From Hypomesus transpacificus (Eukaryota > Chordata > Actinopteri > Osmeriformes > Osmeridae), in contig NC_061074.1 in the NCBI RefSeq assembly GCF_021917145.1, positions 8,123,485 through 8,187,484 on the forward strand: a DNA stretch of 64,000 bases, read 5' to 3'. Position 1 is the first letter of the stretch, and each line of letters starts with the position of its first letter. Shown in pieces: positions 23,901 through 26,900 of this stretch. A program made the position numbers and the translations under genes. A model generated the notes under the pieces. It saw nothing but the letters and a program-made list of their open reading frames with translations. It was not told where the DNA came from and did not search any database.

Positions 23901-26900
23901 CACAATGCCAGATTTAGACACATCCTTAACCAAGGGATCCAAGGGAGTAGGACATTGGTGGGGGACAAAAATGTTTGGGAAACCCTTTAGATCCAGGTGC
24001 TTCTGATGAGCATTAACAAACCTACGATCCAGATTCAGCAGCTACACAGCCATGATGTGACTGAACATAGTGCATTTACACTGAGTCATTTAGCAGACGC
24101 TCTCATCCAGAGCGACTCACAGTAAGTACAGGGACATTACCCCCGAGGCAAGTAGGGTGAAGTGCCTTGCACAAGGACACAACGTCATTTGGCACAGCCG
24201 GGAATCAAACTGGCAACCTTCTGATTACTAGCCCGATTCCCTCACCGCTCAGCGACCTGACTCCCCTGACAGTAGCAGACACAGTTGCTGGCATTACATT
24301 GTGGATTTTTCTTTCACTGCTAAAAACCCCAAAATGGTGCCAAATTTGACATCACAAGAGGCTAAGCTGTTTAAATACAATTAAGTGGAAGACCCAAACC
24401 CAAATTTTCTGAAAAAGCTATTCTGAGCCACAGCAGAGAACATAAGCTGAGGGTGTCCTAAGTTGAGGGATATTAATCCTGAGTCAGGCTCACTTTGGAA
24501 AAAGGGGCATGCGCACACATGCACTTCAGTGCATTACCAAATCAATGTAGTCATGCACACACACACACTACCCATCTATTGCTCTCTGTTTAGCTGTCAA
24601 CATAGTAAACCATGGCTTCATATTCGTTTATATAATCACAACATAAACACATGCCAAATGGAAATAGAATAAAGCAGAAGACCGCCACAAAATGTAAGAG
24701 AGGACATACTTGTATGTCAGTAAGTGTTTGAGAAGTTGAGATTTACATTTAGCAGACGCTCCTATCCAGAGCGACTTACAGTAAGTACAGGGACATTCAT
24801 CCAAGGAAAGTAGGGTGAAGTGCCTTGCCCAGGGACACAACTTCATTTTTCATGGCCAGGAATCAAACCGGCTACCTTCTGATTGGTAGTCCGATTCCCT
24901 AACCGCTCAGCATCTGACCCAGCTGAGATACATCGGGTATAACAAGCACACTGACTAAAGTAACATCCATGCTTAGTCAAGACCACCTACAGACTGGTTT
25001 CTGAAGGCTGATTGAAGGCAGACTGGGGTTAGGTCTAGACACCAGGCTGCTTTAAACACCCTACAGTACAGTACCTTCTTTGGGGAAAACGAATTACAAA
25101 CAATTAGATTAAAGGCTAAACATCATCCAGTCTAAAAGGGACCAGAGAAAAATGATTTCCATGAATCCGTTTAGAAGGGTTTTCTGTTAGCAAATCCACC
25201 TTTTACTCATTTTTAGACTCTATGAGAGATGAAAGGCGAGTCAAACCTAGCACCCTCTTTTTATTTTTATCTCCTGCTCACTAAGTCTGAGGCATCATGC
25301 TGCGAGCTTGTCAGCCCCGCCCCCATTGCCGAGGTTACTGCAGTTTGTTGACCGTTAGTAACCGCCTGAGAGCAGCTCAGGCAGTGCTGCTCCTGCCGCC
25401 TGCAGTCTACCTTCTCCAAGCTCTTCTCAGTTTCCTCTCCGTGTAGATTACCTCGATTTTTCTGGACAGCTTCACAGCCCAGTTTCCATTGCAGTCATCA
25501 ATCATACCTGGCTGCGAAGGTGCCCTAGTTAAAGCTGCTTGACGAGAGGCAACAGTCAACACTATAATGTCTGACGTCCACAGTCTGCGATATTTCCAGT
25601 GATGTCAGACTTCAAAGTTTCATTCACTCACTTTATCATACCAAGAAGTAAAGTGTACAAGCAGTTCTGAATGTCAAAACGTTTTTTAAATATTACTGTC
25701 CCCATGGAATTATATCTTACAGCACTGCGATGTCACAGAAGTTAAGATTGCATCAAGTTGCATCAAGACACACAGAAAGACGAAACACAGAAAGTAAAAG
25801 TGGATGGGTAGTCTGCTTTCCCTGCCCTATCAGCTTCAATGTCTATGCATATTTAATGAAATCAGCTTTCTGAATGAGAGTAACTCTTCCAACGTCAAAC
25901 ACTTCAGTGTGAGAGACTTGATAACAGATGATCAAAACTCATCAGGCCTGCTTCAAAGCCAGAATTAACTAGTGAAGTCTCTCTTTAAGAATCGTCAATG
26001 GCAGAGACCAGGGCATGCACTTGCTTATTCCAACCATAAAAGGGAAGCTACGACTTACTACTTAATATCCACTCCTTCACTTTCTTATATCTTCCTGAGG
26101 AAACATTTGATCATTACATCAATTTAACTGTTTTTTTTGGGGGGGTGGGTGGGGGGGTGGGGGCATCAACTTAACTGGTAAGTGGAGGTAAACATAAACA
26201 GAAGCAAGTTGTCCATCTGTAAAGTTCAGCAAACTGTCGTGTTTTTTTCACCATCCCAAGACAGCAATGCTTTGGTACATGAGACGACACGTGAGGCAAC
26301 ACACAAAATACAAGTGATGTGAGCAGGTCAAATAAGACAGTTTGCATAGATGCAGACATGCAAGATGTTTCCAGATGGGGAGAGATAATGAGCAGAACAA
26401 TACTCTGGAATGTTGGGTCTCAAGTCAGGACATGTCAAGGTAACAAGCCAGCTGTATGATTACGTCAGTACAGAAAACTACCAATTAGCCTACACCTCAC
26501 TAATAAACACCTTGGTTGTGAGGCGATCGTGACACTTCTGAACACAGCGTGAAGCGGTGATTGGAGTCGGTGAAGACCGATGGTTATTCTTTATTTCAGG
26601 CTGGAATTACAGTTTGTAACGTAGACTGAGCGCAAGACCACTCCCAGCCTTATCAAGTCCCAGTTGAACAAATCAAATGAATAGCTAGCTAAAGAATTCA
26701 CTCGTACAATAGGCCACAGAACAGATCACACTGTTGGCTTCAGGTGTGGAAAATGTAAGTAGGCCCATGTTAGAGATGAGCTCCCTGTCCAAACGGTAAC
26801 ACTGCAAGTATGATTGTTAGGTACCCACCTTTCTTTCTCCACCATGGCCCCTCTGGAACTGAATAAGATATGTCTTTGAATTCAATGTTGACAGCTGGTC

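Follow-up and report, generated by a model that had tools for sequence, protein, structure and literature searches.

The LXR elements of mammalian ABCG1 are intronic, and LXRE-A and LXRE-B of the human gene reportedly go back to Sabol et al. 2005. The LXREs of mouse Srebp-1c carry the spelling GGTTACT...CGGTCA. Fish, too, possess LXR (nr1h3). According to an excerpt of a review, DR4s in LXRE-A and LXRE-B of ABCG1 are bound by LXR/RXR (PMC8707585), and the mouse Srebp-1c LXREs are called well established in an excerpt of another paper (PMC6344342). A literature search for printed LXRE sequences led to excerpts of PMC8044163 and PMC8945546. The latter excerpt gives the LXR element of the human ABCA1 promoter, TGACCGATAGTAACCT, whose mutation cut transcription in each of the four cell lines examined, and it names an SP1/GC box on the promoter fragment (PMC8945546). 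The DR4 motif derived from LXR ChIP-seq in human macrophages has a spacer that begins with CT; the excerpt reporting it employs R, M and N in its consensus legend and describes ACSL3 as responsive to LXR ligands (PMC3295715). Judged by title, we found no literature on LXREs of fish abcg1.

We analyzed a 64-kb stretch of the Hypomesus transpacificus genome (hereafter the window) in which a preliminary description had pointed to an LXR-type DR4 within abcg1. The element probably belongs to a cluster of LXR/RXR response elements of the CT-spacer DR4 type in abcg1 introns 1 and 2. Like human LXRE-A and LXRE-B, the fish sites are DR4s in the same gene. Whereas the human elements are bound by LXR/RXR, the fish sites are candidates predicted from sequence.

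Results

The abcg1 locus and its candidate sites

The gene was located by tblastn with what we take to be the human ABCG1 protein sequence as the query. The search returned 20 rows, 6 of which were weak, lay outside the gene order and were dropped; the query was covered except for residues 378-383. ABCG1 structures were the top matches for two abcg1 exons in a comparison with the PDB. We took the splice borders from the sequence itself: exon 1 runs to 27791, where GTAAGT follows, exon 2 spans 27072-26829, and exon 3 starts at 20350, preceded by CAG. The DR4 had been assigned to intron 2, and its position (25364-25349) indeed falls between exons 2 and 3. It had been spelled CGGTTA-CTAA-CGGTCA, which we read on the minus strand, the plus strand at 25349-25364 being TGACCGTTAGTAACCG. 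Since abcg1 also lies on the minus strand, the motif is on the sense strand, as claimed. The features discussed below are as follows.

14957..27853, minus strand: abcg1 coding span, covered by 14 collinear tblastn segments running from 27853 to 14957
25349..25364, minus strand: main element CGGTTACTAACGGTCA, an LXR-type DR4 whose spacer is CTAA, located in abcg1 intron 2
25332..25347, plus strand: weaker converging DR4 AGGTTACTGCAGTTTG, starting with AGGTTACTGC, 3 mismatches to RGGTTACTNNMGGTCA
25314..25323, minus strand: GC box GGGGCGGGGC, one of two such boxes in the window
27266..27281, plus strand: LXR-type DR4 AGGTTACTATCGGACA, abcg1 intron 1, matching the human ABCA1 LXR element at 15/16 positions
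27247..27257, minus strand (gene strand): TATA-like TATATATAAGG, intron 1, 8 bases downstream of the 27266 element
27593..27608, plus strand: DR4 AGGTTATTACAGTTCA, intron 1, spacer starting with TT, from a motif scan with the spacer letters freed
20853..20868, minus strand: LXR-type DR4 AGGTTACTGTAGGCCA, intron 2, some 0.5 kb short of exon 3, from the motif scan
10744..10759, minus strand: LXR-type DR4 GGGTAACTCCAGGTCA, about 4.2 kb beyond the abcg1 coding end, from the motif scan

Intron 2 also holds a 35-base minisatellite (22069-23103, about 22 to 30 units) and a repeat roughly 165 bases long that is present in two copies (24087-24253 and 24746-24911, 86-94% alike). Elsewhere in the window, open reading frames on both strands at 47760-59872 are presumably odorant-receptor-like, and an 813-residue frame at 60423-62864 is one that we take to be reverse-transcriptase-like and LINE-like; a stretch of this protein recurs near the srebf1 locus. 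Rfam at the gathering threshold and tRNA scans gave no match in the 64-kb window.

The main element and its patch

The main element is a direct repeat of two nuclear-receptor half-sites separated by a 4-base spacer. Its first half starts with C instead of A/G, and its spacer begins with CT, the start preferred by LXR. The exact 16-mer occurs once in the H. transpacificus assembly (437 Mb, 376 contigs), the genome used for all genome searches. An inverted partner and a GC box had been described beside the DR4, and both are there: AGGTTACTGC at 25332-25341 on the plus strand converges on the main element as the start of the weaker DR4, which stands one base from the main element, and GGGGCGGGGC lies at 25314-25323 on the minus strand. 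The surrounding region (25300-25450) has 57% GC and a CpG observed/expected ratio of 0.59, against 40% and 0.41 for the whole window. The heptamer GGTTACT as such is unremarkable in the window (13 copies, rank 70 among 420 anagrams). A transposon-borne origin of the element was rejected: the 301-base stretch around it is single-copy, its sole genome match being itself, and it lies outside all repeat families listed for 20000-29000.

LXR-type sites are clustered in abcg1

Taken as a generic DR4 (RGKTYA twice, at most 1 mismatch), such sites occur at chance level, with 19 in the window versus 18.4 in shuffles, so that the generic description alone is not unusual. The CGGTTA/CGGTCA site is itself absent from these matches at 1 mismatch, and AGGTTATTACAGTTCA is the only zero-mismatch match to RGKTYA-N4-RGKTYA in the window. 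The generic scan was uninformative, and we turn to the LXR-specific motif, the full letters of which we take to be RGGTTACTNNMGGTCA. Scanned at up to 1 mismatch, the 64-kb window contains four sites (10744, 20853, 25349 and 27266), and every abcg1 site carries a mismatch to the consensus. Dinucleotide shuffles gave a mean of 0.05 sites and a largest count of 1, with 0/100 reaching four; column-permuted motifs gave a mean of 0.0565 and a largest count of 3, with 0/2000 reaching four. From the genome rate of 0.069 per 64 kb (at least 472 sites), the Poisson probability is 9e-7 for four sites and 5e-5 for the remaining three once the originally described one is left out. At up to 3 mismatches, 22 sites were found versus 14.5 expected, and 1/100 shuffles reached 22.

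The sites are also concentrated within the gene. Introns 1 and 2 with exon 2 (20361-27792) make up 11.6% of the window and hold 3/4 of the motif sites (P = 0.006) and 4/5 of the sites found with free spacer letters (P = 0.0008). When we kept the half-sites fixed and tried every spacer length between 0 and 9 bases, we obtained counts of 2, 0, 1, 0, 5, 2, 1, 0, 0 and 1, one of the two spacer-5 sites being the 10744 site again. Among the 16 spacer dinucleotides, CT gave 4 sites, TT 1 and the others 0.

The preliminary description had proposed a matrix scan. In a matrix built from seven mammalian LXREs, six of them with the sequences that we take to be theirs, the described site ranks first in the window; its score alone was reached in 6/200 shuffles. 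It is the cluster and not the single 25349 site that carries the significance. Ranks 2 to 7 were jointly reached in 0/200 shuffles and rank 8 in 7/200; two of the top seven (44253 and 52701) lie outside abcg1.

The human ABCA1 element as a probe

Probing the window with the human ABCA1 element, we found its three most similar 16-mers within abcg1 introns 1 and 2, at 27266, 25349 and 20853, with 15, 14 and 13 of 16 positions identical. At 12, 13, 14 and 15 identities the probe found 9, 3, 2 and 1 places in the window; these counts were reached by 8, 2, 0 and 0 of 300 shuffles and by 102, 19, 0 and 3 of 1000 permuted probes. Genome-wide, there was no excess at up to 1 mismatch (8 places, the 27266 site among them, versus 9 for the reversed control). 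The five contigs bearing the 7 abca1-like matches are without an ABCA1-type site at up to 1 mismatch, and an ABCA1-type element at the fish abca1-like genes was rejected at this threshold, as all 8 places sit on other contigs; weaker sites may still lie there, the RGGTTACTNNMGGTCA matches listed at up to 1 mismatch being a lower bound. The human element belongs to a promoter, whereas the fish abcg1 sites are intronic; a GC box is common to the ABCA1 promoter fragment (excerpt of PMC8945546) and the surroundings of the fish 25349 site.

Exact motif matches near other lipid genes

Exact matches to RGGTTACTNNMGGTCA number 28 in the genome versus 10 for the reversed pattern; the 28 include one 4-copy tandem array and 3 matches with alike flanks. 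At up to 1 mismatch there was no genome-wide excess (at least 472 sites versus 546 for the reversed control). Among the matches listed at this threshold AGGTTAGTATAGGTCA appears 9 times and is perhaps a repeat carrying a DR4-like word.

Seven of the 28 exact matches bear the CGGTCA half, common to the main element and ABCA1, and 20 kb were read around each. For the other 21, 10 kb were read around 2, in which no gene was recognised as an LXR target, and the remaining 19 were read as 3-kb loci. Four of the seven CGGTCA matches, or 4/9 of those read more widely, have srebf1, acsl3-like, acsl4-like or apolipoprotein open reading frames no more than about 3.5 kb away. About 1.2 kb upstream of the srebf1 frame, whose bHLH matches SREBP-1 at 6e-17 and SREBP-2 at 2e-5, stands a DR4 pair, AGGTTACTAGCGGACA and GGGTTACTTTCGGTCA (L042:9960, that is C17:9013059, and C17:9013085), with AGGTTACTAGCGGACA starting 26 bases before its exact CGGTCA partner. 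This pair resembles the mouse Srebp-1c LXREs, whose GGTTACT...CGGTCA spelling is common to the fish; the close pair of abcg1, by comparison, is head-to-head and has one weak member. A match identical to the human ABCA1 element (L024, C32:611925) lies about 3 kb upstream of a frame that we take to be acsl4-like. Another (L009, C10:4536717) is about 3 kb upstream of a presumably acsl3-like frame, a piece of which is AMP-binding. The fourth (L003, C2:16093136) is about 3.3 kb from apolipoprotein A1/A4/E-type frames, which match PF01442 at 2e-26 (above the curated cut-off) and 6e-13 (below it). As to the other three, one (L008, C9:17016938) is about 0.85 kb upstream of a frame that we regard as KLF15-like, one is by a TRPM-like frame and one is without a gene label. 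From these neighbours it would seem that LXR reads the motif in H. transpacificus and tolerates both CGGTCA and CGGACA as halves.

Discussion

Single matches to a motif of this kind mean little; what counts is clustering at the right gene. The LXR-type reading put forward in the preliminary description is well supported by the spacer and half-site preference and by the further sites in introns 1 and 2, and the exact matches beside other lipid genes of the same genome lend it additional backing. We consider the cluster to be of an ordinary kind and likely functional.

Alternatively, the sites could be chance DR4-like words within the introns that serve no function. The chance-level count of loose DR4s, the shuffles that equal the 25349 site on its own and the lack of a genome-wide excess at up to 1 mismatch all speak for this reading, but four sites were found where 0.05-0.07 are expected, they are grouped in one LXR-target gene, and they are specific for a 4-base spacer and a CT/TT dinucleotide; we regard chance as unlikely. 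DR4s are common to thyroid hormone receptor, CAR and PXR, so that another RXR partner could read the sites, and the MYB core TAACGG lies within the main element. A GGTTA 5' half followed by a CT spacer is, however, the LXR ChIP-seq signature, and the sites at 27266, 20853 and 10744 are without TAACGG, which makes another reader very improbable. An observation from trout counts against LXR elements: in hepatocytes, 25-hydroxycholesterol lowered abca1 and abcg8, the set measured in the excerpt being without abcg1 (PMC7048274).

If the sites are LXR/RXR response elements, the 5' half of each DR4 would hold RXR and the 3' half LXR. Binding of oxysterol by LXR would swap corepressor for coactivator, and the occupied introns would act as enhancers that raise abcg1 transcription, so that excess sterol would be exported. 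With a GC or TATA box beside a site, the introns might work as internal promoters instead, and the patches at 27266 and 25349 could be such promoters. Sterol-switched internal promoters, formed by the intron 1 element with its TATA box and the intron 2 pair with its GC box and giving LXR-dependent transcripts that skip exon 1, seem to us rather improbable. Were they real, sterol load would alter the N-terminus of ABCG1 as well as its amount.

As LXR/RXR response elements, the abcg1 sites may be related by descent to the mammalian elements, and such a cluster suggests that fish and mammals wire abcg1 to cholesterol alike, in a conserved circuit. Experiments on how sterols regulate fish genes would find precise targets in the candidate sites, and elsewhere in the H. 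transpacificus genome the motif points to srebf1, acsl3-like, acsl4-like and apolipoprotein genes. If the sites are bound, the LXR-ABCG1 link of reverse cholesterol transport would be spelled in this fish by almost the same 16 bases that mammals use.
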